From positions 1-64,000 of the forward strand of contig JACMRL010000021.1 of assembly GCA_014376435.1 (NCBI GenBank): a stretch of DNA of 64,000 nucleotides, read 5' to 3'. Position 1 is the first letter of the stretch. Each line of letters begins with the position of its first letter. The notes beneath the pieces were generated by a model. That model did no database searches. It saw only the letters and a program-made list of their open reading frames with translations, and was not told where the DNA came from. Of the stretch, positions 24,384-41,085 are shown piece after piece. The translations under genes were made by a program, and so were the position numbers. The DNA comes from Bdellovibrio sp. (GTDB taxonomy: Bacteria; Bdellovibrionota; Bdellovibrionia; Bdellovibrionales; Bdellovibrionaceae).

Positions 24384-24460
24384 GGAGAGGTAGTTAAGTT
24401 GGTTATAACGTCCGCCTGTCACGCGGAAGGCCGCGGGTTCGAGTCCCGTTCTCTCCGCCA
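24384..24460 (+). tRNA. tRNA-Asp(GTC)
   Basis: Full cloverleaf: acceptor GGAGAGG/TCTCTCC (one G-U), D stem GTTA/TAAC, anticodon stem TCCGC/GCGGA with loop CTGTCAC (anticodon GTC at 24418-24420), T arm GCGGG-TTCGAGT-CCCGT, discriminator G and encoded CCA. Its 3' half is the attachment site of the integrated element, and the recombinase gene runs antisense into it. Confidence 0.97.
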
Positions 24461-25930
24461 TTTTTCTAAATTGGTCACATTAGCAAACATAGAAAACGGT
24501 TTTTTCAAGTCATATCGCAGACTTCCGTTTTCTATTCGTGGGTTCGATAGTACCAAATTCACTAATTCACGTTTTTCATCAGTTGTCATAGATTTGAAAA
24601 GTGTAGGAGCTTGTCTAGCGAGTTCCATAAGTTGAATATCTTGATTCATATTAGATTCTTTAGATGTGCGAAGCTGAGTTAATTGTGACTCAATAGAAGA
24701 TAGCTCTAGTTGAAGTCGATTGTTTTGTTGAATCCAAAAGTCTAAATCAATATGACCTTCAAGTTTGTCTTCATAGGCTTTGTTAATTTTATTTTCTACA
24801 GTTCGATAGCGATTTTCTAAAGTCGTTCTTTGTAGGTTTTGATATTCGATTTCTTTTGAATGGGAATCTTGTAGTGCCTTTTTAGTCCACTCAATTATTT
24901 CTTCAGGTATTTGAATCTGTGTTAATGCTTCGCTAATCCATGAATCAATTTTACGTTCTTCAATATAAGTAACGTCAGGGCAATTTCCCTTACCCGAAGT
25001 GCAATGATAGTAAACATAACGAAGACCTGACTTTTTAATTTTCTCTTCTGCTGTAATTGAACAACCACATGACCCGCAAGTCATTGTGCCAGTAAAAGCA
25101 AAATTCTTTTTAGTTAGCTTTCCTTTTTTGACCAAACCCATTTGAACCTGAACTCGATCAAATAGTTCTTTTGTTATTATTGGTTTGTGCGAACCCTTGT
25201 GAAAAGCACCTTTCCAATAAAAATCTCCGTAGTATAATGGATTACTCAAGACCCTTTGCATCTGGCTTTTGCTTAATTCAGATTTTGCTCTAGGGGATCT
25301 TAATCCTTCTTGAAAAAGAATTCGTTTTAGTTTTGATAAAGAATAATTACCAGTAGCAGCTAACTCAAAACCACGTTTAATGATCGGTGCAAGTTTTTGA
25401 TCGGGCTCGATCGTGTGATCAATTCTGTTATTAGTGAAACCCATAGGCGCAGCTGATGGCCACATTCCCTGGTCTGCTTTTTCATTTAAACCTTTTCTTA
25501 CTTCTTCAGAGAGATTGTCTGAATAGTTTTTTGCCATTAAAACTTTTATTCCATGAATGAGTTTTTGATGCGACCTTGAGTCTTTAGATAAAACTTCATT
25601 TTCTTTTGCTAGATGAATTGATAAATGAACCCAGTCCGCAGGGTCTAAGATATTATAATCTTTGAGGTTGCGATAAAGACGATCAGTTTTTTCAACAAGT
25701 AAGTGCTGAACTTCTTCATTCTCTGTTAGATATTTTACTAAGGCCTTAAATTGTGTTCGACCAGCTGATTTAGCTGATTCAGACTCTTCAAAGACTTTAA
25801 CAACTGTAAAGCCTTTCTCTAAAGCATATTCATTCAGATACTTTTTTTGAGCGGGAATTGAAAATCCTTCCCGCTCTTGTTCTTTCGATGAAACTCTGAC
25901 GTAAATTACGGCTTTATATTTCTTCTCCAT
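24419..25930 (-). CDS. Large serine recombinase (integrase of the tRNA-Asp element)
   Basis: 503 aa. Resolvase domain 1-150 with nucleophile Ser14 in VIYVRVSSKEQEREG. Recombinase DNA-binding domain in the middle (GMWPSAAPMGFTNNR ... LKRILFQEGLRSPRAKSELSKSQ ... NPLYYGDFYWKG). Zinc ribbon MTCGSCGCSI...YHCTSGKGNCP. Then a coiled coil (LENRYRTVENKINKAYEDKLEG), as in phiC31/TndX-type integrases. The last 13 residues and the TGA are encoded by the complement of tRNA-Asp, so the integration site supplies the gene's 3' end. It overlaps the MerR-like gene by 17 nt, which may act as directionality factor. Confidence 0.93.
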   Translation of the reverse strand: MEKKYKAVIYVRVSSKEQEREGFSIPAQKKYLNEYALEKGFTVVKVFEESESAKSAGRTQFKALVKYLTENEEVQHLLVEKTDRLYRNLKDYNILDPADWVHLSIHLAKENEVLSKDSRSHQKLIHGIKVLMAKNYSDNLSEEVRKGLNEKADQGMWPSAAPMGFTNNRIDHTIEPDQKLAPIIKRGFELAATGNYSLSKLKRILFQEGLRSPRAKSELSKSQMQRVLSNPLYYGDFYWKGAFHKGSHKPIITKELFDRVQVQMGLVKKGKLTKKNFAFTGTMTCGSCGCSITAEEKIKKSGLRYVYYHCTSGKGNCPDVTYIEERKIDSWISEALTQIQIPEEIIEWTKKALQDSHSKEIEYQNLQRTTLENRYRTVENKINKAYEDKLEGHIDLDFWIQQNNRLQLELSSIESQLTQLRTSKESNMNQDIQLMELARQAPTLFKSMTTDEKRELVNLVLSNPRIENGSLRYDLKKPFSMFANVTNLEKWRRERDSNPRPSA

Positions 25931-26135
25931 CGATCAAAATACCTTTCAAGTCATTTAATGCAAACATACGATAGTTATTGATCGGATGGCGATAGCTCTT
26001 TATTCGACCACTTCGCTCCCAACGACGTATCGTATCAGGGTGAACTTCAAACAATTTGGCAAGATCGCCTACGAGAATCATGTGCTTACTTAACTCAAGA
26101 ACTTTAGATAGGGTTGCTGCATCTTTGTTTAACAT
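25914..26135 (-). CDS. MerR-like HTH protein, possible excisionase/regulator
   Basis: 73 aa with one helix-turn-helix of MerR/excisionase type: LVGDLAKLFEVHPDTIRRWERSGRIKSYRHPINNYRMF. A near-perfect AAGGAGGC lies 6-8 nt before the ATG. It is translated just upstream of, and overlapping, the recombinase gene. Recombination directionality factors often sit in this position. That role is inferred; a simple repressor is equally possible. Confidence 0.75.
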   Translation of the reverse strand: MLNKDAATLSKVLELSKHMILVGDLAKLFEVHPDTIRRWERSGRIKSYRHPINNYRMFALNDLKGILIDGEEI

Positions 26136-26165: not shown

Positions 26166-26678
26166 TTATACGCCCCGAGTTAAAAAATCTACGATATGAC
26201 AAAATCGACTTAAAAACTGTGTTTCATATTTTGTATAAACATTCTCCAACCCAGCGAGCTTATCGGGGTGAATTGTCATTGCCTCCCCTTTGCTTACAAG
26301 AACGGTTTCGAATTTGTCTGAAAAAAAACTTGTGTCAGGTCCCACGCCTTTGCGTACAAGTTTTTCTTCATACTTGGGTGGATTTAATAATTCACGCATA
26401 AATTCAGATTCAAATCGTGTGCATCTTTTCAGTCGAATATGCAGTATTGCAAGTTGGGTAATAAGAATCTGTCTTGAGGGGCTATCTGCACCAAATTCCT
26501 CAGCAAATTTATTATATGCTTCTTCAAAAGTTACATCGTCGTAACTCGTACTAAATGTGGCAAGTATTCCATGTTTAAAAGAATTTTGTGATGAAACAGT
26601 TTTACCCTGATCTGTTTTTACGCCTCCCTTTTTGCCGTTGATAGGACTTGTTTTAGTTCGTTTGTCTAATGCATCCAT
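26166..26678 (-). CDS. Mobile-element protein of unknown function, 170 aa
   Basis: The N-terminal motif INGKKGGVKTDQGKTVSSQN followed by SFKHGI resembles the GPKTxxGKxRSSxNAxKHG motif found near the start of many element- and phage-encoded proteins of unknown role. The remainder is helical (FGADSPSRQILITQLAILHIRLKRCTRFESEFM). It overlaps the upstream Rep-like gene by 13 nt, so the two are co-translated. Confidence 0.6.
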   Translation of the reverse strand: MDALDKRTKTSPINGKKGGVKTDQGKTVSSQNSFKHGILATFSTSYDDVTFEEAYNKFAEEFGADSPSRQILITQLAILHIRLKRCTRFESEFMRELLNPPKYEEKLVRKGVGPDTSFFSDKFETVLVSKGEAMTIHPDKLAGLENVYTKYETQFLSRFCHIVDFLTRGV

Positions 26679-27658
26679 GTTTTTACCCCCTGTGGTTTGA
26701 TGAATGTTTCTATTTTAGTCTTAAAAAGTTGTGATGGCTGGATTTTCCAGTTATCAACTTTAATTAGTTTTGAAAAATCCCGATCAAAATTACGTGACTG
26801 ATTCATCATTTTTTTTGCTGAATAGAAGCCGTCACGTTCGAGATTGTGTTTAAATGCAGCAAGGCGTAGTGATTGTTCTGTGTTCAATGGTAAATCAGTG
26901 AATCGAGTATTTACACCAACAAGTCCTTCGAAATGCAAACCAGCTGCGACCATATTTGGAATGTCAATAATAGAACGAGACGGGAGTTTGGATTTTCCCA
27001 ATCGAAGTTCAATGCGAGTAAAATTGTCAGTTAAATTTTCTTTTTTTGCTTTGTCATAGATTTCAATTTTTTCGTTACCTTTCCCGATAATTAAGCCAGT
27101 TCGACTTCCACTTTCGTCAATAAAAGTAAGAGAGCTTCTTTTGTTTTTAATATCTAACATTTGAGTTAACGCAGAAAATGAACATTCAAAATCAAGATTC
27201 AGGTCAAGCCTTGTTACCTTAGCATTTAAAATTGGTTCCTTTGGTACGACAGAATTGATAAAAGTATAATAGTTTTGCCAATTTATAAATTTATTTGGAT
27301 TTGAAATCAGACCTGTAATATCAGTTTCGCCGTAGCTAAGTTTTAAGTGAATTTGATTTGAATCCGAACTGATAACTAAATAGGGCTTTCGATCCTTAAG
27401 AAACACACGTTTGATCGTATATCCAAAAAGTTTTGCCGCTTTATGAATTTGACCAATTTGAATCGTTTCGGTGAAATAAGCATTGAGTTTGTCAATTCCA
27501 GCTCCTATCACTTTTGGTTGATCATTGTCTGACGAAGGTTTTACCCTTAATACCCTGTTGTTAGCACTTTTAAGAATGTTAAAAAATGATGCTAGCGATT
27601 GACGGCAATCACATAAATTATTGGTCTGGCAGATTAGGCATTGCTCCGTAACATTCAT
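26666..27658 (-). CDS. Replication-initiator-like protein (Rep_trans/phage RIF type)
   Basis: 330 aa. The core resembles replication initiation factors of rolling-circle plasmids and elements: a conserved strand with acidic residues (AKVTRLDLNLDFECSF), IYDKAKKENLTDNFTRIELRLGKSKL with a Tyr in IYDK as possible nucleophile, and a C-terminal helical region. The N-terminus has a Cys cluster (CLICQTNNLCDC) that may bind zinc. An integrated element with its own initiator could replicate after excision, as ICEs and IMEs do. The family assignment is by motif only. Confidence 0.55.
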   Translation of the reverse strand: MNVTEQCLICQTNNLCDCRQSLASFFNILKSANNRVLRVKPSSDNDQPKVIGAGIDKLNAYFTETIQIGQIHKAAKLFGYTIKRVFLKDRKPYLVISSDSNQIHLKLSYGETDITGLISNPNKFINWQNYYTFINSVVPKEPILNAKVTRLDLNLDFECSFSALTQMLDIKNKRSSLTFIDESGSRTGLIIGKGNEKIEIYDKAKKENLTDNFTRIELRLGKSKLPSRSIIDIPNMVAAGLHFEGLVGVNTRFTDLPLNTEQSLRLAAFKHNLERDGFYSAKKMMNQSRNFDRDFSKLIKVDNWKIQPSQLFKTKIETFIKPQGVKTWMH

Positions 27659-28837: not shown

Positions 28838-28957
28838 CTAAGTAACGATAAATGTTCTCCGCTAAAATTGTCGAAATACTATATCTTTCTTATACTTGCA
28901 TTATCTTTGGTTATCATTAAAAATTATGACTTGGTAGTTGTGATGGAGGCTTTTTGT

Positions 28958-29191
28958 ATGACTGAACGATGGTTAAATGTTGAAGAAATTGCTCAGCACT
29001 TGGGCGTCGCCGCAATCACGGTTTACAGGTGGCTTGAAAAGGGTTCGATACCCTCGCATAGGGTTGGTAAGCTATGGCGTTTTAAGGCCTCTGAAGTCGA
29101 TGAGTGGATCGGCATTGGCGGGGCTGGGAGCGATTCATCAAATAAATTATCAAATTTAAAATCAACTAAAAATTTACATCAGGAGAAATAG
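28958..29191 (+). CDS. Excisionase-family HTH regulator leading the hsd operon
   Basis: The start at 28958 is set by GGAGG at 28945-28949; the in-frame extension to 28868 is hydrophobic and lacks a ribosome site. The 77-residue product is a compact HTH_17 domain: LNVEEIAQHLGVAAITVYRWLEKGSIPSHRVGKLWRFKASEVDEWI. It ends 2 nt before hsdM, so it is part of the restriction operon. Control of hsd expression, as C proteins do for type II systems, is a plausible inference. Confidence 0.8.
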   Translation: MTERWLNVEEIAQHLGVAAITVYRWLEKGSIPSHRVGKLWRFKASEVDEWIGIGGAGSDSSNKLSNLKSTKNLHQEK

Positions 29192-29193
29192 CA

Positions 29194-30648
29194 GTGTTTG
29201 AGCAAACCTTTAAAAATATAGATGACATACTTCACAAAGATGCAGGCTGCGGTAGCGAATTAGACTATGTAGAACAGACCTCTTGGGTATTGTTTTTAAA
29301 GTATTTAGATGACCTTGAAAAAGACAAAAAAACTGCCGCTGAACTTGCAGGTAATGACTACAAGCCCATTATCGATAAACAATACCGCTGGGAAGTTTGG
29401 GCAGCTCCAAAAGATAAAGATGGCAAAATTGACCACGATAAAGCACTAACTGGCGACGACTTAAAAGACTTCGTTGATTTAAAACTGATCCCATACTTAA
29501 AAAAGTTCAAAGCCAATGCTGAATCGGCTGATACAATTGAATATAAAGTTGGTGAAATTTTTAGTGAACTGAAAAACAAAATTCAAAGTGGCTACAATAT
29601 GCGTGAAGTGATAAACCGCATTGATGAATTACGTTTTCGTTCTCACGCTGAAAAGCATGAGATGTCACATTTGTACGAAGCTAAAATCCAAAATATGGGT
29701 AATGCTGGCCGTAATGGGGGAGAGTACTACACTCCACGCCCATTGATTAGAACTATCGTTAAGGTAGTTGAACCTAAAATAGGCGATAAAATTTATGATG
29801 GTGCAGTTGGGTCTGCTGGCTTTTTGTGTGAGGCTTTTGAGTATTTAAAAGAAAGTAAAAAACTAACGACTAAAGACATTGAAACACTTCAAAAAAAGAC
29901 TTTCTACGGAAAAGAAAAAAAGTCATTGGCCTACATTATCGGAACCATGAATATGATTTTGCATGGGGTTGAAGCTCCAAACATAGTTCATACAAATACG
30001 TTGGCTGAAAACTTATCAGATATTCAAGAAAAAGACCGCTATGATGTTATTTTAGCGAATCCACCTTTTGGTGGCAAAGAACGTGCAGAAGTTCAGCAAA
30101 ATTTTCCAATCAAGACTGGTGAAACAGCCTCCTTGTTTTTGCAGCATTTTATTAAAATACTTAAAGCTGGAGGTAAAGCTGGCATCGTTATAAAAAATAC
30201 TTTTTTAAGCAATACCGATAATGCAACTGTTAGTATAAGAAAACTTATTTTAGAAAACTGCAACCTTCATTCAGTGTTAGATTTACCTAGCGGCACGTTC
30301 ACTGGTGCAGGTGTGAAAACCGTAGTTCTTTTTTTTGACAAGGGTACTCCAACAAAAAAAGTATGGTTTTATCAACTTAATTTAGATCGAAATTTAGGTA
30401 AAACAAATGCACTAAGCGAAAGAGACTTGGCTGATTTTGTTAAACTTCAAAAAACAAAAACTGAAAGTGAAAACGCTTGGACTATTAACGTAAAAGATAT
30501 AGATCAAAAGACGTTTGATTTGAGTGCTAAAAATCCGAATAAAAAAGAAGTAGCTTCTTTACGCCAACCGCAAGATATTTTAGAAGAAATGAAAGCGCTG
30601 GATGAAGCGAGTACGGAGATATTAGATTCAATTATGGAACTACTATGA
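29194..30648 (+). CDS. hsdM: Type I restriction-modification methyltransferase subunit HsdM
   Basis: 484 aa. N-terminal HsdM helical domain (LHKDAGCGSELDYVEQTSWVLFLKYLDDLE), then the N6-adenine methylase domain: GGEYYTPRPLIRTIV, the SAM-binding DGAVGSAGFLCEAF and catalytic NPPF at 289-292. GTG start preceded by AGGAG. With HsdS it methylates the host sequence and protects it from HsdR. Its stop overlaps the hsdS ATG by 4 nt. Confidence 0.95.
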   Translation: MFEQTFKNIDDILHKDAGCGSELDYVEQTSWVLFLKYLDDLEKDKKTAAELAGNDYKPIIDKQYRWEVWAAPKDKDGKIDHDKALTGDDLKDFVDLKLIPYLKKFKANAESADTIEYKVGEIFSELKNKIQSGYNMREVINRIDELRFRSHAEKHEMSHLYEAKIQNMGNAGRNGGEYYTPRPLIRTIVKVVEPKIGDKIYDGAVGSAGFLCEAFEYLKESKKLTTKDIETLQKKTFYGKEKKSLAYIIGTMNMILHGVEAPNIVHTNTLAENLSDIQEKDRYDVILANPPFGGKERAEVQQNFPIKTGETASLFLQHFIKILKAGGKAGIVIKNTFLSNTDNATVSIRKLILENCNLHSVLDLPSGTFTGAGVKTVVLFFDKGTPTKKVWFYQLNLDRNLGKTNALSERDLADFVKLQKTKTESENAWTINVKDIDQKTFDLSAKNPNKKEVASLRQPQDILEEMKALDEASTEILDSIMELL

Positions 30649-31847
30649 AGCAAGGTTGGGAAATAAAAAAACTATCCGATATTGGCAAAGTTTTTAATGG
30701 CAACAGTATTAACGAAAAAGTTAAAAAAGATAATTATACAGATTTAGTTGATGGCTACTCATTTGTCGCTACAAAAGATGTAGGGTTTGATAGTAAAATT
30801 GATTATGAAAATGGAGTAAAAATTCCTTTTTCTGAAAAGGCCCAATTTAAAATTGCACCAGCAAATACGCCGTTAATTTGTGCGGAAGGAGGGAGCGCAG
30901 GAAAGAAAATAGCTATTACAAATCAAGATGTTTGTTTTGGCAATAAGTTGTTCGCCTTAGTTCCAAATAAAAACGTAGATAGCAAATTTATATTTTACTA
31001 CTATTTCCATTCTTCATTTCAGAAGTATTTTGCTGCTGAAATGGCCGGAATTATTGGGGGTGTTTCAATGAATAAATTTAAGGAAATCGAAATCCCCCTC
31101 CCACCCCTTCCCGAGCAAAAACAAATCGTAGCAATTTTAGATGAATCTTTCGCCGCCATTGATAAAGCAAAAGCCAATGCCAAGCTAAACCACAAAAACG
31201 CCAAAGAACTTTTTGAAAGTTATTTGCATGGTGTATTTGAAAATAAAATGGCTACTGGTAAAATTAAAACCTTAATTGATTTTTGTGAGTTTAAACAAGG
31301 GATTCAACGAGACGTTAAACTTCAAAGTGAAATTGAGGGCAACAATCAAGTAAGATTTTTACGAATCATCGACTTTACTCAAGGCGATGAGTTACACCGA
31401 TACATTGATAATCCTGGTGCAGAATATGTTTTGGGCGAGAATGATATTTCCCTAGTGCGTTATGGCGCATCTACTGGTTTCGTTTGTACAGGTTTGAGTG
31501 GGGCTTTAGCCAATAATTTGTTTCGGGTTATTCCTAGAAACAAGAACGAACTGATCAATGAATTTTTATACTTTTATCTTAAAGCTCCCATTTTCCAAAG
31601 AGTTATTAAAGAAAGCATGAATGGGGCGGCGATGCCTGCAATTAGTTTTGGATTAATAGAAGATATTCCATTTCCAGTAGTTTCTCTTAGTCATCAGAAA
31701 GAAATAGTTCAAAAACTTAAAACTTTGGCTGACGATGTGCTAAGGCTAGAATCAATTTACAAACAGAAAATCGACGATTTAGAGGAGCTTAAAAAATCAA
31801 TCCTGCAAAAAGCCTTTTGCGGTGAGCTAGAAGGAGCTTCTCAATGA
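30645..31847 (+). CDS. hsdS: Type I restriction-modification specificity subunit HsdS
   Basis: 400 aa with the classic two-half design. The first target-recognition domain is followed by a conserved helix region (EIPLPPLPEQKQIVAILDES, about 145-195); the second target-recognition domain is followed by the second helix region (DDVLRLESIYKQKIDDLEELKKSILQKAF). The two halves determine a bipartite DNA target, which cannot be read from sequence alone. Overlaps of 4 nt with hsdM and hsdR show tight coupling. Confidence 0.92.
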   Translation: MKQGWEIKKLSDIGKVFNGNSINEKVKKDNYTDLVDGYSFVATKDVGFDSKIDYENGVKIPFSEKAQFKIAPANTPLICAEGGSAGKKIAITNQDVCFGNKLFALVPNKNVDSKFIFYYYFHSSFQKYFAAEMAGIIGGVSMNKFKEIEIPLPPLPEQKQIVAILDESFAAIDKAKANAKLNHKNAKELFESYLHGVFENKMATGKIKTLIDFCEFKQGIQRDVKLQSEIEGNNQVRFLRIIDFTQGDELHRYIDNPGAEYVLGENDISLVRYGASTGFVCTGLSGALANNLFRVIPRNKNELINEFLYFYLKAPIFQRVIKESMNGAAMPAISFGLIEDIPFPVVSLSHQKEIVQKLKTLADDVLRLESIYKQKIDDLEELKKSILQKAFCGELEGASQ

Positions 31848-34156
31848 ATGAAGCTGAAACAAGGGCAGAACTAATTGACCCCAAGCTATTACAAAGCGGC
31901 TGGGGTGTAGTTGAAAACACGAAAGTTCTTAGAGAGCATCAAATCACTGCTGGTAAAATTCAAACTGGTGGCGGTCGGTTAAAGCAGCAAATTGCTGACT
32001 ATGTATTGGTTTACAAAGGTCGCAAGTTAGCCGTTGTTGAAGCTAAAAGTGATGACCTTGAAGTTGGTGAAGGTGTCGCTCAAGCTAAGAAATATGCAGA
32101 AATGCTTCAAGTTGAAACTACATTTTCAAGCAATGGAAATGAAATTTATCAAATTTGTTTAAAAACCTGCACTGAAGGTTTAGTAAGTAAATTTCCTACA
32201 CCCGAAGAACTTTGGGCTAAAACTTATGGTGTTGAAAATAATTGGCGTGATATATTCAATGCTGTTCCATTTGAAGATGTTGGCGGGTCTAAGGGCGCCA
32301 GGTACTATCAAGAAAACGCAGTAAATAATGTAATGGCGGCAATCGCCAATAAGAAGCCTCGAATTTTACTTACCTTAGCAACAGGTACTGGAAAAACATT
32401 TATTGCATTTCAAATTGCTTGGAAGTTATTTCAGACTAGATGGAATTTAAAACGTGACGGAGCAAGAAGGCCTCGAATTTTATTTCTTGCAGATCGAAAC
32501 ATATTAGCTGATCAGGCTTTCAATTCTTTTTCAGCTTTTCCTGAAGATGCTCTCGTGCGTATCAACCCTAAAGAGATCAGTAAAAAAGGAAGTGTTCCAA
32601 CTAATGGCAGTATTTTCTTTACTATTTTTCAAACTTTTATGAGTGGTAAAGACGATAAGCCTAATTTTGGTTCGTACCCACCCGATTATTTTGATTTTAT
32701 TATTATTGATGAGTGTCATCGTGGCGGAGCAAATGACGAAGGCAATTGGAGAGGAATTTTAGATTATTTTTCTCCAGCAGTTCAGCTTGGTTTAACAGCT
32801 ACACCAAAGCGCAAAGATAATACTGATACTTACAGATACTTTGGCGAGCCAGTGTACATTTACTCTTTGAAAGAAGGAATCAATGACGGCTACTTAACAC
32901 CTTTCAAAGTTAAAAGAATTAAAACCACTTTAGACGATTATATTTATACTTCTGACGATCAATTGGTTGAAGGCGAAATTGAAGAAGGCAAAAGATACGT
33001 TGAAAGTGATTTTAATAAAATAATTGAAATCAAACAGCGTGAAGCTAAGCGTGTTCAAATTATGCTTGATAACGTTGATCAGTCAGAAAAAACTATCGTA
33101 TTTTGTGCGAACCAAGCCCATGCGGCTGCTATTCGAGATCTAATCAATCAAAATACAAAGAGAAAAGATCCCAATTACTGTGCAAGGGTTACTGCTAATG
33201 ATGGCGAAATTGGCGAACAGTTTTTGCGTGAATTTCAGGACAATGAAAAAACTATTCCTACTATGCTTACAACATCACAAAAACTATCTACGGGTGTTGA
33301 TGCCAGAAACGTTAGAAACATAGTTCTTATGCGTCCAGTGAACTCAATGATCGAATTTAAGCAGATCGTTGGTCGTGGAACTCGTTTATTTGACGGTAAG
33401 GAGTTCTTTACGATTTATGACTTCGTGGACGCCTATCAACATTTCGCTGATCCTGAGTGGGATGGTGAGCCTTTAGCGCCTGAAGCGCCAGTAGATCCAA
33501 AAGATCCCAGTAAGCCTAAGGAGCCAAAAGAACCGAGTGGCTCAGATGAGCCAAAGGCCGAAAGAAAAAAGAAGATTAAGGTAAAACTCAGGGATGGAAA
33601 AGAGCGAGAAATTCAGCACATGATTTCAACCTCGTTTTGGGGTGCTGATGGTAAGCCAATTTCAGCTGAAGAGTTTCTGCATAACCTTTACGGCGCATTA
33701 CCAGCCTTTTTTAAAAGCGAAGATGAGCTTCGTAAAATTTGGTCTAGCCCGATAACCCGTAAGACACTGTTGGATAAACTAGCTGAGGGTGGTTTTGGTA
33801 AAGATGAATTGGTGGCATTGCAAAAACTGATTGATGCGGAAAAAAGCGATTTGTTCGATGTTCTTGAATATGTTTCATTTGCAGTTAAGCCAATAACCAG
33901 AGAAGCCAGAGTTGCTGGTGCGCAATCTAATATCTTTGCAATGTTAAACAGTAAACAAAAAGATTTCTTGGACTTTGTTTTATCTAAATACATCGAAACT
34001 GGTGTTGAAGAACTTGATCAAGAGAAGTTACCAAAGCTACTGACGTTAAAGTATCTGTCGCTTGATGATGCAAGTAGCGTACTTGGCGATGTTCCAAAAA
34101 TACGTTCTATGTTTATTGATTTTCAAAAGCATTTGTATGATCAAAGAGGTGCATAA
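31844..34156 (+). CDS. hsdR: Type I restriction endonuclease/translocase subunit HsdR (EcoEI-like)
   Basis: 770 aa, within the size range of the EcoEI (type IB) branch. N-terminal nuclease motif Asp52 ... Glu66-Ala-Lys68 (IADYVLVYKGRKLAVVEAK). Helicase motor: Walker A ATGTGKT (179-185), DECH (289-292), LGLTATPKR, and motif VI-like QIVGRGTRL. A Pro/Lys-rich linker (PVDPKDPSKPKEPKEPSGS) precedes an EcoEI-type C-terminal domain. All catalytic residues look intact. Its stop is 2 nt before the dynamin-like gene. Confidence 0.94.
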   Translation: MNEAETRAELIDPKLLQSGWGVVENTKVLREHQITAGKIQTGGGRLKQQIADYVLVYKGRKLAVVEAKSDDLEVGEGVAQAKKYAEMLQVETTFSSNGNEIYQICLKTCTEGLVSKFPTPEELWAKTYGVENNWRDIFNAVPFEDVGGSKGARYYQENAVNNVMAAIANKKPRILLTLATGTGKTFIAFQIAWKLFQTRWNLKRDGARRPRILFLADRNILADQAFNSFSAFPEDALVRINPKEISKKGSVPTNGSIFFTIFQTFMSGKDDKPNFGSYPPDYFDFIIIDECHRGGANDEGNWRGILDYFSPAVQLGLTATPKRKDNTDTYRYFGEPVYIYSLKEGINDGYLTPFKVKRIKTTLDDYIYTSDDQLVEGEIEEGKRYVESDFNKIIEIKQREAKRVQIMLDNVDQSEKTIVFCANQAHAAAIRDLINQNTKRKDPNYCARVTANDGEIGEQFLREFQDNEKTIPTMLTTSQKLSTGVDARNVRNIVLMRPVNSMIEFKQIVGRGTRLFDGKEFFTIYDFVDAYQHFADPEWDGEPLAPEAPVDPKDPSKPKEPKEPSGSDEPKAERKKKIKVKLRDGKEREIQHMISTSFWGADGKPISAEEFLHNLYGALPAFFKSEDELRKIWSSPITRKTLLDKLAEGGFGKDELVALQKLIDAEKSDLFDVLEYVSFAVKPITREARVAGAQSNIFAMLNSKQKDFLDFVLSKYIETGVEELDQEKLPKLLTLKYLSLDDASSVLGDVPKIRSMFIDFQKHLYDQRGA

Positions 34157-34158
34157 CA

Positions 34159-36807
34159 ATGAGCATAGATCAATCAGATGTTCAACTAAAGCAATATTCA
34201 GATGGATTAACCAAATTACTGGATATTATAAATTCAAAAAGTGGCGTATTCGATTTAAATAATAATGTTAATGACATTAAAAAAAATGAAGCTATTAGGC
34301 TTTTGCGAAGTTTAGATGAGTATAATGGTAGAGAGAAATCGTTAATTTATTTAGGATTTCTAGGGCATTACTCTACAGGTAAATCTAGTACAATAAATTC
34401 TATTCTAAATTTACAAGGAGAAAGCGCCCGCCCACATGGTTTGGATAGAACAGATAAGCAGATCACACTTATCACTAAACAAGAAAATTTAAACTCGCTA
34501 ATTCTAATGGTTAGAACGGGCGATGTGCCAATACGAATTTCTAGTATTGAGTCTGATTTATTAAAGAATATAGTGTTAATGGACACGCCAGGGTCTGGTG
34601 ATCCTAGTATTTTAAATGAGCTTGTCAGGGATATACTGCCTGTTTGTGACTACTTATTTTACTTTATTTCTGCCGCCAACCCATTAGATGATGCTGATTT
34701 GCCGTTACTCAAAGAAAAGAGTAGGGATTTAAAATTTATTCCAATGAAAGTTATTCTTACCAGAGCAAATGAGTTTGCTCAGGATGAAAATGAGCAACTT
34801 ACAGAAACAAACTTTAATGAAAAATCAAGCAAGGAGTTGGTGGGAAATTTAATAGCAAAGTTTAAAGAATTTGCGTCGATTGAAATGGATGAAAAAGATG
34901 TGTTTCTTATTGATAACAAGGCTTGTTTTCGAATCGAAGCTCTGCGTGAGTTTATTATCCACGAAGTTTCAAGTCGAAGCACCGACAAGGCCTTACAAGT
35001 TCACTCGCATAAGGTTAATTTTTTTAAAACAAAATCTAGTGCTTTACGTGAGCATTTTTTTAAAATTGTGATTAGTAAGATTGAAGACCTTGGTTTATAT
35101 CTCAAAAAAGCAGAAGAGAATAAAAAAAAATACGAGGATTCTGTAAATATCAGTAATAATAATTTGACCAATTCTTGGTTTCAAAAAGAGCAAAAAATTA
35201 AGACGTCATTTACAGAATTTGAAAAAGCCATTACGGAAACCGCGAAAAAACTAACTCTCCCTGAAAATATTTGGCAAGCGGTAAATTTTATAAAATGGCA
35301 AAACGATGTTAAGCTATTCATTCACCAAGAGGCGGTAAGTGAGTCTAATTTAATAATAATGAATTATAAAAATGAATTAAAAAATTCAATTTCTATGCAA
35401 GTTTTTGATTTGAAAATTAAACTGAGCAATCACGAATTTGATGAAAATACTGACATTGGCGAACTGTTAAAATTGGATTTTAACTTTAAGTTAGATGTAA
35501 AAAGAGAACTGCATGGCTCGACTGACTTAAATTACAAAGTATCAAGATTTTGGCATGAGAGTCGTTCGGTTGTTAAAGAGACAGCAGAAGAAATTAAAAG
35601 TAATATTTCAACAATGTTGGGGCGAATTAGGGGTAAATACCCTTTAAAAAATTTAAAAGACTATGTCGAAGAATCAATGCAAAATTTAAACCAAGACATT
35701 GATAAATTTTTTTCAATTGCTGAGTTGTATAGAACAGCGATTCTGTCTAGACATGTAAAGGATTATATAAATAATTTGAACTTGGGAAAAAATTTAGACG
35801 ATTTAGACCAAGATTTTTTAGCCCAAGATAAGCTGCAACTGGCGCAAGAGGCCTCAAATGCTATATATTTCAACTACGAATTGAAGAATAGCAAGACGGA
35901 GCAAATTTTTAGCCAAATTGAAAACGACATTTTAAACGTAAAAATTCAAAATATTGTTTTGGAAGACGAATTAAACATCAAAGGCAAACAGGAAAAGCTA
36001 TTTAGTGACATCAAGCCAGCGATTGTTTTTCAAAATGTTTATGATATTTTTTCACAAAAAGTAGAAAATAGACTTCTGAAAGAATATGAAAACATAACAC
36101 AAAGAGTTTCGAAGATTTATATTGGTAAAAGAAATACTTATTTGGAAGAGATCGATAATTGGAAAAAAGATACAAAAAAGCTGATAAAAAATATTATTCT
36201 ACTAATTTTGACTACTGTTTTAGTCTTAGCAATAACCTTCAATTTTAATATGGAAATTCCACAAACAATATTTTGGGTAATTATTACGACGATAATTTCA
36301 GGAACTATTTTTGAGCTCTATAAAAATTATATTTCATTAAGTATATTTAAAAATTTCGTTAAGTCAGGTAGTCGAGTTTTTGCAGCAAAGAATAAATTTT
36401 CATTGGAAATGAGGCATGCAATCGATGAGATAATAACTGATTTTGATTTGGGTTCTCTTGAGATTGAAAATAGTATTATATATACCGAGATTGAAAGAGA
36501 GTGGAGCCAGCAGTTTGAAACATTGAAGTCAAATACAGAAGCAATGAGTCTGGCTGAGATTTATACACAATTAAATAATATTTCTATAGAGCTTCGATCT
36601 ATAAATTTAAAGTATTCACAGACAGGCACTGAGGTATTTAGTCAGTATTTAAGTTATTATAACAATCCAGAGAGTAATATAAGTCATTTAAATGGAATAT
36701 CGAATAAAATCAAAATTAATTCAATTGAGCCTTCTTTTCTGCATCTGCAAGAAGTCTCCAAAGAATTAAATCTATCTAAAGAAAACATAGGTGCTGTCGT
36801 TTTTTAA
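34159..36807 (+). CDS. Dynamin-like membrane GTPase in the restriction operon
   Basis: 882 aa. GTPase domain: G1 GHYSTGKSS (69-77), G3 DTPGSGD (142-148), and TRANEF (201-206) in the place of the NKxD G4 motif. A long helical or coiled-coil stalk follows. Two adjacent membrane segments at about 678-695 and 703-720 separated by a short polar loop recall the paddle of bacterial dynamin-like proteins. Then comes a second helical region. Bacterial dynamins occur in defence islands (for example the LeoBC/Eleos system) and in membrane repair. The 2-nt gap from hsdR argues that it belongs to the same functional unit. It is strongly AT-rich. Defence function is inference. Confidence 0.75.
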   Translation: MSIDQSDVQLKQYSDGLTKLLDIINSKSGVFDLNNNVNDIKKNEAIRLLRSLDEYNGREKSLIYLGFLGHYSTGKSSTINSILNLQGESARPHGLDRTDKQITLITKQENLNSLILMVRTGDVPIRISSIESDLLKNIVLMDTPGSGDPSILNELVRDILPVCDYLFYFISAANPLDDADLPLLKEKSRDLKFIPMKVILTRANEFAQDENEQLTETNFNEKSSKELVGNLIAKFKEFASIEMDEKDVFLIDNKACFRIEALREFIIHEVSSRSTDKALQVHSHKVNFFKTKSSALREHFFKIVISKIEDLGLYLKKAEENKKKYEDSVNISNNNLTNSWFQKEQKIKTSFTEFEKAITETAKKLTLPENIWQAVNFIKWQNDVKLFIHQEAVSESNLIIMNYKNELKNSISMQVFDLKIKLSNHEFDENTDIGELLKLDFNFKLDVKRELHGSTDLNYKVSRFWHESRSVVKETAEEIKSNISTMLGRIRGKYPLKNLKDYVEESMQNLNQDIDKFFSIAELYRTAILSRHVKDYINNLNLGKNLDDLDQDFLAQDKLQLAQEASNAIYFNYELKNSKTEQIFSQIENDILNVKIQNIVLEDELNIKGKQEKLFSDIKPAIVFQNVYDIFSQKVENRLLKEYENITQRVSKIYIGKRNTYLEEIDNWKKDTKKLIKNIILLILTTVLVLAITFNFNMEIPQTIFWVIITTIISGTIFELYKNYISLSIFKNFVKSGSRVFAAKNKFSLEMRHAIDEIITDFDLGSLEIENSIIYTEIEREWSQQFETLKSNTEAMSLAEIYTQLNNISIELRSINLKYSQTGTEVFSQYLSYYNNPESNISHLNGISNKIKINSIEPSFLHLQEVSKELNLSKENIGAVVF

Positions 36808-36945
36808 TATAATTTAGGAAAAACGCTTCTAATCAAATGTCAGGGAATTGAAACTTGAGTGATTAAAATATAAATTTATAAATAATGCTAAAGATTCTGC
36901 CCGCGGAATGAGCACAAGTTATTCTAACCTGTTATCTGATCGATA

Positions 36946-36985
36946 CAATAAGTTCGATACTCGTCCCATCGACTCCGCCATTTTT
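36946..36985 (+). repeat. 40-nt tRNA-end-like element, copy B (probable attR)
   Basis: Begins CAATAAGTTC and ends CGCCATTTTT. It aligns without gaps to the copies at 38102 and 40613 (about 32/40 and 30/40 identities by hand). Its last 23 nt match the tRNA-Asp 3' end and flank at about 19 positions. It lies 138 nt after the dynamin gene stop. Confidence 0.7.
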
Positions 36986-37058
36986 TCCATGAATAATTTA
37001 AAATAGTTGGATAGAGTTTTTTGAGTAAGGCCTTACTGGTCTCGAACCTTATGCGATC

Positions 37059-37346
37059 ATGAGCTTTTTTGGAAATGAGGGCTATGGAGTCACAGCAACC
37101 GAACGCAACTATCCTGACAAACAGAATACGAATATCCTATATTACGGATACTTGGAAGGTCATGCTGGCTTCGCTAAATATAATAGTATGATGTCGGGAA
37201 ATCCAGAAGGTAGAAATTTTAGATTGCAGTATATGTTTTCTGGAACGGGTCCTAAATATCGCGTAACAATTATAGATGAAAATTTATCGATAACAGAAAT
37301 CCCTTGGGCAGGATGTTACTTTTCGGCGGAATTAGAAAAGCAATAA
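37059..37346 (+). pseudogene. Orphan coding fragment, 95 codons, no ribosome site
   Basis: The translation (MSFFGNEGYGVTATERNYPD ... YYGYLEGHAGFAKYNSMMSG ...) has the look of a real protein, with aromatic and glycine-rich strands and no low complexity. However, the frame continues only about 10 codons upstream to a stop and no Shine-Dalgarno sequence precedes the ATG. I read it as the C-terminal part of a lost gene. The family is not recognised. Its TAA is embedded in a diverged copy of the 40-nt element (37341 onward). Confidence 0.4.
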
Positions 37347-37390
37347 GTTTTTAAGCTCGACCCATCGGATCTTGAGTTATCCGCCACATT
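37341..37390 (+). repeat. Diverged copy of the tRNA-end-like element
   Basis: CAATAAGTT at 37341, CTCGACCCATCGG at about 37356-37368 and CCGCCACATTT at 37381-37391 reproduce the blocks of copy B in order, but with an insertion of about 9 nt before the last block. The CAATAA includes the stop codon of the preceding fragment. Confidence 0.45.
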
Positions 37391-37432
37391 TCCGCCCTTA
37401 AATATTTCAGATCGTATTAAAACCAATCTAAG

Positions 37433-37482
37433 TTGCGAGGTATACCTTGTAAGGGTATACCTAAGTAAGGTATATTAAGTCA
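37433..37482 (+). promoter_or_regulatory. higBA promoter with three phased GGTATACC operator boxes
   Basis: GGTATACC at 37439-37446 and 37454-37461 and GGTATATT at 37469-37476 recur every 15 bp, ending just before the higB ATG at 37482. TTGCGA (37433-37438), a 17-bp spacer and TATACC (37456-37461) form a promoter within them. This is the layout expected for autorepression by the HigA antitoxin. Confidence 0.75.
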
Positions 37483-37775
37483 TGGCGATTCAATTATTCT
37501 CGGACCATGCAACAGAAGTTTTATTCAAAGATGGAACCGTCAAAAAGGCAGTTGGCTGGCATAATGTCAGTAAAGTGGCTTTGCGTAAATTAGATATGCT
37601 TCATTACGCCGCTAAGTTGACGGATTTAAAGTCTCCTCCGAATAACCGGCTTGAAGCCCTTAAAGGTAAATTGAAGGGCAAATACAGTATTCGTATTAAT
37701 GTTCAGTGGAGAATTGTTTTCCGCTGGACTGATTTAGGACCGACCGAAGTTGAAATTATGGATTATCACAAATGA
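37482..37775 (+). CDS. higB: HigB-type toxin (RelE superfamily mRNA interferase)
   Basis: 97 aa, matching the HigB/RelE length. Sequence features are typical: VGWHNVSKVALRKLDMLHYAAKLTDLKSPPNNRLEALKG, then KGKYSIRINVQWRIVFRWTD and EVEIMDYHK. Such toxins cleave mRNA on the ribosome. The toxin-first order and a 4-nt overlap with the antitoxin frame are characteristic of hig loci. No Shine-Dalgarno sequence is seen because the operator boxes reach the ATG. Confidence 0.88.
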   Translation: MAIQLFSDHATEVLFKDGTVKKAVGWHNVSKVALRKLDMLHYAAKLTDLKSPPNNRLEALKGKLKGKYSIRINVQWRIVFRWTDLGPTEVEIMDYHK

Positions 37776-37783
37776 GGATTAAT

Positions 37784-38074
37784 ATGAGCCAACAACGAAA
37801 ACCAACTACACCTGGTGAAATTTTGAGTGAAGAGTTTTTAGCTCCGCTTAAAATGACACAAAAGCAATTAGCTGACCATATTGACTGTGATGTGAAAGTT
37901 ATTAACAGGCTTGTTAATGAACGAACAGCGGTCACTGCCGAAATGGCTTTAAAGCTAGGTGCTGCATTGCGCACAACCGCTGACTTCTGGCTTAACGCTC
38001 AAAAGGCAGTTGATCTATACGAAGCACGTAAAAGCCTTGGTGGACTTCCAAAGCCAATTAAAAAGGCAAGTTAA
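37784..38074 (+). CDS. higA: HigA-type antitoxin (XRE HTH)
   Basis: I start at the ATG at 37784, which has GAGG just upstream; a frame-extending ATG at 37772 overlaps the higB stop. The N-terminal TTPGEILSEEFLAPLKMTQKQLADHI is the HigA/VapI signature, followed by the recognition helix region (CDVKVINRLVNERTAVTAEMALKL). It neutralises HigB and, with it, represses the promoter upstream. Confidence 0.88.
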   Translation: MSQQRKPTTPGEILSEEFLAPLKMTQKQLADHIDCDVKVINRLVNERTAVTAEMALKLGAALRTTADFWLNAQKAVDLYEARKSLGGLPKPIKKAS

Positions 38075-38101
38075 CGGAGTTAAGCGATTTGGGTAGTCCA
38101 A

Positions 38102-38141
38102 CAAAAAGTTCTAAACTCGTCCCATTTGGCCCGCCATTTTT
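38102..38141 (+). repeat. 40-nt tRNA-end-like element, copy C
   Basis: Ungapped relative of copy B, beginning CAAAAAGTTC, with ACTCGTCCCAT in the middle and CGCCATTTTT at the end. It lies 27 nt after the higA stop. Its 3' flank TTTAAATTCTTCC resembles the tRNA-Asp flank TTCTAAATTGGTC, so it could also be a right end of the island. Confidence 0.7.
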
Positions 38142-38192
38142 TTAAATTCTTCCTTTTCAGTTTATCAATACCAGTACTAGAATGTAAATTAT

Positions 38193-38618
38193 ATGAGTCA
38201 AAAATTATTAGAGTTATTTAAATCCGATTTTGTAGATGCATTGGGTGCTCTTGAACATAGTTGGATGAAGCTAAAAAATCAGCCTATTCCGCATTTGGAA
38301 AAAAAAGATCTAGAAGCGCTAGAGCCTTGGGAAGCGTTGACCGCGCGTTTTGCACGAACCACAGATATCTTCTTAAGTAAATACATTCGATTTTTAATTT
38401 TAAATCTTGATCCAGGATTTCGTGGAGAAATACGAGATTATTTAGACAAGGCTGAAAAAGCCCAATTTATTGTCGATGCGGATCAATGGATGAAGATTCG
38501 TGAGCTAAGAAATAAAATTTCTCATGAGTACAGTAAAGTCGATCTAGAGAAAACTTTAAAAGATGTTGTGCATTTTACGCCTTTCGTTTTGAAAGAATTA
38601 GAAAAATTTAAATCGTGA
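38193..38618 (+). CDS. HEPN-domain protein of a HEPN/MNT toxin-antitoxin pair
   Basis: 141 aa, four-helix HEPN fold. The RX4H ribonuclease motif is seen at Arg106 to His111 (RELRNKISHEY). In HEPN/MNT systems this protein is the RNase toxin, and the adjacent nucleotidyltransferase modifies it. It overlaps the next gene by 4 nt (GTGA). No ribosome site is visible at the ATG. Confidence 0.82.
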   Translation: MSQKLLELFKSDFVDALGALEHSWMKLKNQPIPHLEKKDLEALEPWEALTARFARTTDIFLSKYIRFLILNLDPGFRGEIRDYLDKAEKAQFIVDADQWMKIRELRNKISHEYSKVDLEKTLKDVVHFTPFVLKELEKFKS

Positions 38619-38929
38619 GACTACAACCTGAACAAGTTTCACAATTACATTCGGTTGTGCGACGTTACTTTTCAAATATTAGTTATGATTTATTTTTGTA
38701 CGGTAGTCGCGCAGACGATGCGCTCAAAGGCGGAGATATCGACCTTCTGCTTGTAACATCCACAAAGGGTGTATCGTTATTTGAAGATAAAAATTTAGAT
38801 CTACTTGTAGATATCAAAAAACAATCAGCCATTGGTCAGCGTCGTATTGATTTGAAAGCCACAACTGCTGATCAGCTTAGTACAGATCCGTTTTTGAAGG
38901 TCATTGCGCAGACGATGGTGCGTATTTAA
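38615..38929 (+). CDS. MNT-type minimal nucleotidyltransferase, antitoxin partner
   Basis: 104 aa, GTG start overlapping the HEPN stop. The nucleotidyltransferase motif is complete: GSRADDALKGGDIDLL with Gly30-Ser31 and Asp41/Asp43, plus a later Asp in RRIDLKA. Related MNT proteins AMPylate their HEPN partner on a Tyr near the RX4H motif; here the following RNKISHEY has a Tyr two residues after the His, as in that mechanism (inferred). Confidence 0.85.
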   Translation: MRLQPEQVSQLHSVVRRYFSNISYDLFLYGSRADDALKGGDIDLLLVTSTKGVSLFEDKNLDLLVDIKKQSAIGQRRIDLKATTADQLSTDPFLKVIAQTMVRI

Positions 38930-39046
38930 GGTTCTACGGTTCTACTGACTCGATGGTGGAATATGGGTTTAGGCCTAACCATATGATTCTGCGTTAGTTT
39001 TATTGATGATTTGCCAAACGGGGCTTCTTTCAAATAAACTCATTGC

Positions 39047-39694
39047 ATGAGCGAAGTTAAGATTTCTCTTTTTCCTATTCCTGGAAGCGTTTCACTGCCG
39101 TTTGATAAAATCTCTCTACATGTTTTTGAACCGCGGTACAGAAAAATGATTTTAGATTCGATTGAATCGAAACGGCGTGTCGGCATCGCGCACACGCAAA
39201 AAATGATTGGTGAATCCAAAGTCAAACCCAACAGATCAAAAGAGGAAATTTTAAATAGCAACCATGAATCCTATTTGGCTCAGAAAGTATTTTCTGCAGG
39301 CTTTGCTGAAATCATCGAAACTTTACCTGATGGTCGGATGCTTGTTGAAATTACGACCGATAATCGTTACGAAATAAGCGAAGTAAAACAAGCTATCCCG
39401 TATCAGATTGTTATATGCCGAACTTTCCAGGATAAGCCTGAGCCACCTGTTCAGCAACTACGTGCCGAATTAGAACAGATCCTACAAAACATTGGTGCAG
39501 AAACGTCTGAAGACTTAAAGAAATATCTTCAAAGTAAAACTTGGTTACAATTATCTGATTTTGAATACAGCTTTAAAATTTATTCGCTTGTTCCGTTTGA
39601 TCCTAATTCGATGCAAAAAGTTTTAGAATTGAAGTCAATCGCTGCTAGAATTAGCTTTCTAATAGATATTTTGACCCGCGGAACACTTCAGTAA
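39047..39694 (+). CDS. LON-substrate-binding-domain protein
   Basis: 215 aa made of a lone Lon N-terminal domain: ISLFPIPGSVSLPFDKISLHVFEPRYRKMI at the start and the usual beta-strand core (VFSAGFAEIIETLPDGRMLVEI), with helices at the end. No AAA or protease domain. Such stand-alone proteins are widespread, and their role is unclear; binding of unfolded protein is suspected. No Shine-Dalgarno sequence. It is independent of the HEPN/MNT pair upstream. Confidence 0.85.
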   Translation: MSEVKISLFPIPGSVSLPFDKISLHVFEPRYRKMILDSIESKRRVGIAHTQKMIGESKVKPNRSKEEILNSNHESYLAQKVFSAGFAEIIETLPDGRMLVEITTDNRYEISEVKQAIPYQIVICRTFQDKPEPPVQQLRAELEQILQNIGAETSEDLKKYLQSKTWLQLSDFEYSFKIYSLVPFDPNSMQKVLELKSIAARISFLIDILTRGTLQ

Positions 39695-39840
39695 CCCAGG
39701 CACAATTTTACCGCACTTCATTTATTTGCAAGCATGGTAATTGCGGTCATGTAGCTCTAGACAGCGAGATTCCGTTCAGATCGAGGCGCAAAAACGTCAA
39801 CAGGAAAATTAAAATTGATGAAAGTATTTATAATGATAAG

Positions 39841-40608
39841 TCGATTCCAAGAAAAATTGATTTAAGATCTGAACAATCAACAGTAAAAAGCCAGGGCCAA
39901 AGAGGAAGTTGCACCTATTTTGTTATGACCAGTCTGTTAGAAAGTCTAATCATTCAAAAACAAAAAACTGAAATTGATATTTCAGAAGAATATTTCGCCT
40001 GGGCTAGTAAGGTAAAAAATAGATTAAGACTGCGCGAGGAAGATTCATCTATCGCTGTTAATGCATCCACAGTGCAAAAATTTGGATTTATGCTAGAGAA
40101 AAATCTTAAATACCAGGGAAGCTGGTTTGATCAAGGAATGCCTTGTGAATTGCAAAAAGATAAAAAATTGATAGATCCTGTTTGCTATTCTCATACAGGC
40201 CCCATTGCAGAAGATAAAAGGAAAATTATTAATGGGTCCAAATTTATTTTTAAGGCTGTAGCTTCGGGTAGCGCTGACGTTATTTACACGATGGCTCATC
40301 TTAAAAGTCCTATTACAGCATCTATACGTGCTCATCCCATGACCTGGAAAATATCTTCTGAAACGGGTCACTTGGTTTTAACAGAAGAGCATAAAAAAGA
40401 GTGTATATCTAAAGTAGCTAAATGTTCTGCCCATGCCGTGCTCATTGTAGGGTATGACCTTGATAAAAAGGTGTTTCATTTCAAGAACAGCTGGGGCGCC
40501 AAATGGGGGGATAAAGGTTACGGAACCATTCCATTTAATTATATGGATCAGATGTCGGTTAGAAAATTTATGACGGGGACACTTACAAAAAAATTAAAGC
40601 TGGGCTGA
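39841..40608 (+). pseudogene. Papain-like (C1) cysteine peptidase lacking a start
   Basis: The active-site region IPRKIDLRSEQSTVKSQGQ followed by RGSCTYF (catalytic Cys at 39910-39912) lies upstream of the first ATG (39925), in the same open frame. That frame has no ATG, GTG or TTG back to the preceding gene. The His (CSAHAVLIVGYD) and Asn (FKNSWGAKWGDKGYG) motifs follow, so the catalytic core is complete and only the 5' end with signal and propeptide is missing. A truncation at a recombination junction is likely. A protein starting at 39925 would lack the catalytic Cys. Confidence 0.75.
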
Positions 40609-40612
40609 TAAG

Positions 40613-40652
40613 CAATAGGTTCTGAAATCGTTCCATTTACCCCGCGATTTTT
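40613..40652 (+). repeat. 40-nt tRNA-end-like element, copy D
   Basis: CAATAGGTTC ... TCGTTCCATTTACC ... CGCGATTTTT, ungapped to copies B and C (about 30/40 and 32/40 by hand). It lies 4 nt after the peptidase stop codon. Confidence 0.65.
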
Positions 40653-40752
40653 ATCTTCATAAAATTCGAATAGTTAGCTACGATTTTAATCGTCAGGCTA
40701 AATAATTCTCGAACTTTTTTGTTGTAGCTCAACATTAACAGGAGGATTGAAA

Positions 40753-40827
40753 TTGATAAAATTGGGACTGTGTTTATTTGCATTCATTTTATTCATTCAT
40801 GATACCTTGTGTTTCATCATTGACTGA
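40753..40827 (+). CDS. Possible 24-aa hydrophobic peptide or orphan signal peptide
   Basis: TTG start 7 nt after a perfect AGGAGG (40740-40745). The product (MIKLGLCLFAFILFIHDTLC and four more residues) reads like a signal peptide. It may be the stump of a secreted protein gene or a small membrane peptide. Confidence 0.25.
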   Translation: MIKLGLCLFAFILFIHDTLCFIID

Positions 40828-41085
40828 GAAGAGTCTTATCAAATCAAACTGGTATTATTTATGCCGGCAATCTTTATATTTAGAAGTTTATTAAATTTAA
40901 AATCTCATTTTGAGACAACACAATGTCAATATTTCAAACAACTCGCTACTATTTTTGTTCCAGTGTCCGTTTTTAATCTTAAAAGTTCGTAGCAAACGTA
41001 ATAATTGATTAGAGCAGCTTAACAGAAGTCTTACTTTTGCATGCTTAATTCTATATAGACATCTATATTTAAGGAAAATTTAATC

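Follow-up and report, generated by a model that had tools for sequence, protein, structure and literature searches.

A 64,000-nt stretch of DNA from Bdellovibrio sp. (assembly GCA_014376435.1, contig JACMRL010000021.1, positions 1 to 64,000 of the forward strand), hereafter called the window, carries an array of repeats of about 40 nt behind a tRNA-Asp gene. The array was probably formed by serial insertion at tRNA-Asp of elements encoding a large serine recombinase, together with integrase-less cassettes. Sequence comparison points to this through the location and common orientation of the repeats, one pair of filled and empty sites, and the sharing of cassettes across genera and families.

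Repeats behind tRNA-Asp in the window

The target, its core and the repeats are located as follows (R1 is the repeat model described below):
24384..24460, + strand: tRNA-Asp(gtc), putative insertion target, kept intact (ARAGORN; Rfam RF00005)
24455..24465, + strand: core CCGCCATTTTT at the tRNA 3' end, predicted left attachment site of the array (R1 positions 17-39 match 24443-24465, 12.3 bits)
36945-36986, + strand: repeat A, ungapped copy, predicted right end of the recombinase-bearing unit (unit 1)
37341-37390, + strand: repeat B, putative right end, degraded and interrupted by an insert; the core CCGCCA lies close to where it ends
38101-38142, + strand: repeat C, ungapped copy, predicted right end of unit 3
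40612-40653, + strand: repeat D, ungapped copy, predicted right end of unit 4

The initial annotation had reported ungapped repeats in the same orientation near 36946, 38102 and 40613, and these were clearly recovered. A weight matrix derived only from copies in other genomes (16 of them, the odd copy of locus L009 being excluded) gave scores of 47.7 for A, 59.4 for C and 44.1 for D, against 4.9 and 8.5 for the best other sites of the window on the plus and minus strand, respectively. The distances from the upstream stop codons (138 nt for A, 27 nt for C, 4 nt for D) also hold; the probability of three independent placements this close to stops is p ~0.0007, based on the 8.8% of positions in 34159-42771 that are intergenic and at most 140 nt after a listed stop. 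In the host assembly (2.76 Mb, 42 contigs) the core pattern with up to 3 mismatches matched A, C and D only, all of them behind tRNA-Asp, and a reversed control pattern gave no match in the same genome. Repeats A, C and D are considered real and, as far as can be judged from sequence, they look like attachment-site scars marking the ends of units.

The diverged copy proposed at 37341 (repeat B) is weak by itself, with 8.9 bits and an E-value of 0.08 in an unfiltered search of 40 kb, and it ranks sixth on the plus strand with the matrix. Its position is nevertheless supported by the HigBA cassettes of G062:C41 and G034, because both have the same core in front and, by eye, a similar leader. A fifth, weaker trace near 38936-38962 was discarded as a repeat copy, as no match was obtained at E≤10 in the unfiltered search. 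The claim of one repeat after each module did not survive either, since the HepT/MNT, Lon-domain and papain-like genes form one shared unit. Finally, the sites had been described as tRNA-derived, which applies to the core alone: repeat A has TCCGCCATTTTT in common with the tRNA-Asp 3' end, whereas the left half of the repeat resembles the tRNA only loosely and appears to be element-borne. Many tRNA-Asp genes that have no repeats carry the core as well.

Distribution across the order

The training set of R1 consisted of 20 copies from the family of the window, and copies in other families therefore constitute an independent test. Matches were obtained in 22 of the 66 genomes of the family (E≤0.01) and, across the order, in 34 of 140 genomes at E≤0.001, which belong to 7 families and 18 of 65 genera. 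Using a strict exact pattern on a collection of 84,980 species, seven stretches were found, all in records of Bdellovibrio or Bdellovibrionales relatives (six in the window's family, one in family f9, genome G128). Two pattern scans of viral contigs returned no stretch, and a recombinase query, which reaches only close relatives, found none there; distant relatives of the recombinase do exist in phage records, the best match among those listed having 30% identity.

ARAGORN detected a tRNA in 12 of the 26 fetched repeat-bearing family loci and in 4 of 12 loci from the rest of the order, in every case tRNA-Asp; in G108 a tRNA-Asp is also present but part-masked. This gave 18 loci with both tRNA-Asp and repeats (13 of the family, window included, 4 other order loci and G108). 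All 28 repeats counted in them, i.e. those with more than 20 bits by R1, lie downstream of tRNA-Asp and on its strand. Left out of the count were repeat B, weaker matches in L263 and a matrix match behind tRNA-Asp in G065. The 28 corresponding units range from 235 to 12,525 nt with a median of 2.1 kb, and 12 of them are shorter than 1.25 kb, including one in G049 (599 nt) which is cut by the contig end. In two further genomes tRNA-Asp was found far upstream of the repeat on the same strand, at ~57 kb (G119) and ~38 kb (G075). The gene upstream of the tRNA is common to 35 fetched loci, and for most genes between tRNA-Asp and the last repeat the other fetched loci have nothing comparable near their tRNA-Asp.

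Serine recombinase and empty site

Three genes of the window accompany the tRNA-Asp end of unit 1:
24419..25930, - strand: large serine recombinase, 503 aa (Pfam Resolvase, Recombinase, Zn_ribbon_recom), adjoining tRNA-Asp with its C-terminal codons antisense into it
25914..26135, - strand: 73-aa MerR-type helix-turn-helix protein (Pfam MerR), overlapping the recombinase start; homologue at the same place in G006
26666..27658, - strand: 330-aa protein of unknown family, accompanying the element; no Pfam match; homologues near tRNA-Asp in G006, G037 and G014

The initial annotation had included neither the recombinase nor the type I restriction-modification genes of unit 1, nor the leader conserved at the left end of certain cassettes. 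Full-length serine recombinases were found at tRNA-Asp in the window, in G006 (51% identical to that of the window) and in G037 (64%). Fragments or remnants are located at tRNA-Asp in G005, G022, G038, G042 and G044, giving a total of 8 family genomes. The MerR-type protein is a candidate directionality factor.

In G006, 7.0 kb including the recombinase gene lie between the tRNA-Asp core and the first repeat. These 7.0 kb are missing from G003, and the sequence behind the first repeat of G006 closely matches that found directly behind tRNA-Asp in G003, which on this comparison is an empty site matching the G006 element. At tRNA-Asp genes without repeats (G018, G013, G009, G016, G003 and G023), a terminator-like sequence stands just after CCA and a T-run, while in G006 it comes after the first repeat instead. 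From the G006/G003 comparison it follows that the repeat would be the right attachment site of the recombinase element, with a left half contributed by the element and a core, CCGCCATTTTT, that it has in common with the target. Of the two readings offered earlier, that of serial insertions at tRNA-Asp whose right ends stay behind as a stack is supported by this empty site, by location and orientation in the 18 loci and by the recombinase or its remnants in 8 family genomes.

Two side observations concern the recombinase. Its final residues, RDSNPRPSA, are encoded antisense inside tRNA-Asp (24422-24460), and the same tail is found in G006 and G005. Among the fetched loci of its relatives in family genomes (L076-L105), 25 of 30, window included, have a tRNA (Asp, Leu, Ser, Glu/Lys, Met, Phe, Gln or Pro) or tmRNA gene within ~1.5 kb. 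Repeats were sought at nine other recombinase-bearing RNA-gene loci and three gave a 16-nt match. Those at tRNA-Leu in G004 (10.9 kb off) and tRNA-Glu in G009 (14.8 kb off) are likely attachment repeats; the one at tRNA-Ser looks like chance and was rejected.

Left-end leaders

Some units start with a conserved leader of ~75 nt, the end of which is an inverted copy of the left arm of the repeat; the leader resembles an inverted tRNA T-arm. Two were located in the window with the leader model R2, both within its training set:
36975..37048, + strand: left-end leader of unit 2, inverted arm GGTCTCGAAC (67 bits)
40641..40716, + strand: left-end leader after repeat D (57.7 bits)

A similar leader stands straight after tRNA-Asp in G034 and G049. 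In the family genomes R2 gave 28 matches at E≤0.01, of which 11 had been used for training. Of the untrained matches, nine lie either at arrays or no more than 5 kb from tRNA-Asp, with 17.7 to 49.9 bits, and the other eight lie elsewhere (17.7 to 23.9 bits). Other families yielded four untrained matches with 66.6, 55.9, 41.7 and 39.5 bits, located in L255 and L263. The leader after repeat D suggests a further, older unit whose right end is no longer recognisable; the 561-aa gene at 41086-42771, which has no Pfam match and lies behind repeat D and this cassette-type leader, may be its cargo. By eye, an A/T-rich near-palindrome, TCAAATATTTAG or its reverse complement CTAAATATTTGA, was also seen after the core of different cassettes in either orientation (e.g. 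L066:9477-9510 and L059:6143-6217).

Cassettes shared between hosts

A RelE-type pair is shared by G034 (family f1) and G128 (f9) with 75.5% DNA identity over 816 nt, and 85 and 88% identity of the proteins. The homology extends from the core to the end of the antitoxin gene; no half-site is in front of it in G128. A second toxin-antitoxin cassette, HigBA-2, occurs in G062 and G058 (f1), G090 (f8) and G108 (f9) with 75-84% DNA identity and CCGCCA ahead of each copy. It stands alone between tRNA-Asp and a repeat in G108, and a full repeat is in front of it only in G062. The nearest family relative of the window's HigBA belongs to another genus (G062:C41) and also lies behind a repeat (HigA 85%, HigB 74% identical). 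The alternative cassette reading, with recombination sites at the 3' ends of genes, retains part of its value: units without this recombinase are met again in further genera and families, preceded by the core, but the sites are not wholly tRNA-derived.

The cargo of the window units is the following:
28868..34156, + strand: unit 1, HTH_17 gene and type I restriction-modification genes M, S and R (Pfam; PADLOC for M and R)
34159..36807, + strand: unit 1, dynamin-like GTPase (Pfam Dynamin_N, weak, under its cut-off)
37059..37346, + strand: unit 2, orphan open reading frame, 95 aa (no Pfam match)
37482..38074, + strand: unit 3, HigB toxin and HigA antitoxin (Pfam)
38193..40608, + strand: unit 4, HepT-like/MNT nucleotidyltransferase pair, Lon-substrate-domain protein and papain-like protease (Pfam)

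The genes neighbouring the repeats had been read correctly from the start (HigBA, the HepT/MNT-like pair, the Lon-domain and papain-like proteins and, with a weak Pfam match, the dynamin-like protein). Among the proteins chosen for scanning in other units, HipA with Fic/Doc, HEPN-nucleotidyltransferase, Fic and RES proteins were identified.

Proposed model of array growth and alternative explanations

In the proposed model the array would grow by repeated site-specific insertion at the tRNA-Asp 3' end. A unit would take the form of a circle with three parts: a left half-site made up of the consensus AAGTTCTAAACTCGTCCCAT and a few variable bases, the core CCGCCATTTTT, and a left-end leader particular to that unit. 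The large serine recombinase, present in some units and a remnant in others, would cross the core of the circle with that of the tRNA end. The tRNA would stay intact with the newest unit next to it, while the element-borne half-site and the core would be left at the far end of the unit as the repeat. Older units would be pushed outward, leaving repeats stacked in one orientation. Most units have no recombinase relative and would either be moved in trans or be relics which have lost their recombinase. Toxin-antitoxin pairs may stabilise the array once it is formed.

Several observations weigh against this model. A full-length recombinase relative is found in only 2 of the 28 units (G000, G006), and 14 of the 22 repeat-bearing family genomes, several of them drafts, have no homologue anywhere at E≤1e-5; action in trans was inferred because of these absences. 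Remnants of the recombinase are also seen where no repeat can be recognised (G044). The filled and empty sites compared are those of G006 and G003; for the unit of the window itself no empty site was found. G003 lacks the second repeat of G006 although it has the neighbouring gene, hence repeats can also be lost. Different leaders are carried by other units, and a single attP would not predict such differing left ends. With regard to the cassettes, the core before HigBA-2 comes without a full half-site in G058 and G090, HigBA-1 of G108 has no core in front, and the BLAST homology between the HigBA of the window and that of G062 begins inside the leader and not at the core. Relatives of the window's HigA number 26 in 19 family genomes, and only 6 of them, including that of the window, are on a contig beside repeats; the others are elsewhere or unlinked, e.g. 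at 3.47 Mb in G016.

The link to the tRNA is also incomplete. No tRNA was seen in 14 of the 26 repeat-bearing family loci, many of which are short contigs or lie near a contig end. Eight of the 12 order loci lacked one by ARAGORN, of which G108, G119 and G075 were later resolved, and in G122 a search reaching 57 kb upstream of the repeat gave no tRNA-Asp. In five drafts (G048:C73, G054:C69, G020:C236, G040:C142 and G043:C273) the contig ends less than 60 nt from the tRNA-Asp 3' end; the hotspot may be a point where assembly breaks off, and the arrays may hold more than is counted here.

The model is most open to doubt where the recombinase is concerned: in most array genomes none is seen, and pure decay or the action of a different recombinase could then account for the arrays. 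If only decay were at work, the units would once have been full recombinase-bearing islands from which deletions left small units as remnants of accretion, comparable to the CIMEs described below, and no cassette would move today. The remnants at tRNA-Asp in five genomes (G005, G022, G038, G042, G044), the degraded repeat B, the missing second repeat in G003 and the rarity of the recombinase all agree with it. However, independent deletions would hardly produce the same one-operon cassettes, preceded by the core and 75-84% identical in DNA, in different genera and families, and the conserved (type-4) leaders are kept in the test set of other families, where the untrained matches reach the scores given above. 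Decay alone is thus regarded as a rather unlikely explanation.

Less likely still is an unseen recombinase, of tyrosine or other type, working in an attC-like manner on a composite junction of ~109 nt, the serine recombinase being a separate visitor at the same tRNA. The outer arms of the junction are indeed inverted copies of each other (arms like AAGTTCKARACYCGT), window repeat A and G034 are 80% alike over 109 nt across it, and the 14 genomes without serine recombinase would be accounted for. A tyrosine recombinase is encoded on G062:C96 (Phage_integrase by Pfam, the one PF00589 match on that contig), and another was suspected by eye in L254. On the other hand, no unit of the 13 tRNA-Asp-bearing family loci gave a PF00589 match, nor did contig C12, and the serine-recombinase element of G006 has this very right end. 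The folds predicted for the single-stranded DNA were no better than those of shuffles in three of five junctions (z-scores of -0.69, -0.04, -2.61, -0.83 and -2.55), and the pair table by eye contains no clear compensatory changes. The L254 candidate (7848-8951) is a 367-aa protein without Pfam match that resembles a divergent tyrosine recombinase. It was rejected as the array integrase: relatives occur in 27 of 140 genomes, 7 of them shared with the 34 repeat genomes, where 6.6 are expected by chance.

That the repeats are transcription terminators or 3'-UTR (untranslated region) RNA elements at gene ends is very hard to maintain. They do follow stop codons closely and have a T-run at their end. 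Yet no hairpin precedes the T-run by eye, Rfam gave no match at gathering threshold beyond the tRNA, only three copies (≤3 mismatches) exist in 2.76 Mb, all behind tRNA-Asp, and the homology of the RelE-type cassettes from different hosts begins at the core.

Going beyond serial insertion, one may tentatively propose a serine-recombinase counterpart of the integron: a Bdellovibrionales platform for the exchange of cassettes, in which units down to the size of one toxin-antitoxin operon would each bring an attachment site with two ends, pass from family to family and be stored one after another at tRNA-Asp. The sequence rule (R1 half-site and core behind tRNA-Asp) points to gene intake across an order of which some members are predators of bacteria, and suggests integron-like cassette banking without the integron integrase. 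It raises the testable question of whether a serine recombinase moves single-operon cassettes in trans and whether toxin-antitoxin pairs hold the arrays.

Comparison with known systems

A search of the open-licence literature on islands, serine recombinases, toxin-antitoxin systems and mobile elements of Bdellovibrio and Bdellovibrionota, judged by title and start of abstract, gave no description of these arrays. As far as the searches show, what is new is a system at tRNA-Asp that spans the order, in which the units have an element-borne half-site in common and single-operon cassettes occur in more than one family.

Chromosomal integrons collect small, often toxin-antitoxin cassettes, each with a recombination site, and grow from one anchor. 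The present arrays are similar in their small, often toxin-antitoxin cassettes and their single anchor. In the part consulted, PMC4119200 offers one example, an Alteromonas chromosomal integron with toxin-antitoxin cassettes. Unlike integrons, the family arrays with tRNA-Asp have no tyrosine integrase, the sites are formed around the tRNA end, and a serine recombinase is probably involved. Staphylococcal SCC elements use serine recombinases (CcrAB or CcrC) and stack in tandem at the rlmH 3' end; some lack a recombinase, and their units are larger. Both have serine recombinases, elements without one, and units stacked in tandem at the 3' end of one gene, whereas the target here is tRNA-Asp and not rlmH.

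The broader concepts are those of additive islands with tRNA-end repeats and of CIME accretion. The additive islands also use a tRNA gene as cassette target (Methylophilaceae fGI-2, PMC10872708; Alteromonas fGI1, PMC4119200). In fGI-2, according to the sections cited, tRNA 3' ends are repeated with variable islands from one gene up (330 bp-42 kb). These passages mention plain tRNA-end repeats and name no serine recombinase, while here the units share a left half that comes from the element. The excerpts cited from PMC5704250 describe CIMEs (cis-mobilizable elements) as integrase-less elements that keep att sites, are stacked by site-specific recombination and derive from decayed integrative and conjugative (ICEs) or integrative and mobilizable elements (IMEs). 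Similar here are the 26 of 28 units without a full-length serine recombinase relative, the absence of PF00589 from the family units, and flanks that are putative att sites. The difference from decayed ICEs or IMEs lies in the same small cassettes recurring in different hosts; some units do hold recombinase remnants.

Very close in plan are the ssrA islands of Dehalococcoides (McMurdie et al., 2011, PMC3146451), as portrayed in the passages used here, which also compare them with SCC elements. They lie in tandem downstream of one RNA gene (tmRNA) in one genus, each bounded by a short direct repeat of the RNA gene 3' end with a non-gene motif just upstream, and a CcrB-like serine recombinase is encoded on the reverse strand next to attL. 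Fifteen of them have no integration module and were termed possible cis-mobilizable elements; many dehalogenase genes are cargo of these islands. Likewise, a large serine recombinase adjoins the RNA gene in the window, G006 and G037 and is missing from most repeat-bearing genomes, the right-end repeat consists of the RNA gene 3' end with an element-borne motif upstream, and a relative has an empty site (G006/G003). The arrays described here differ in their tRNA-Asp target, their spread over a whole order, units that can be as small as one toxin-antitoxin operon, a left leader conserved in some of them, and cassettes that different families have in common.

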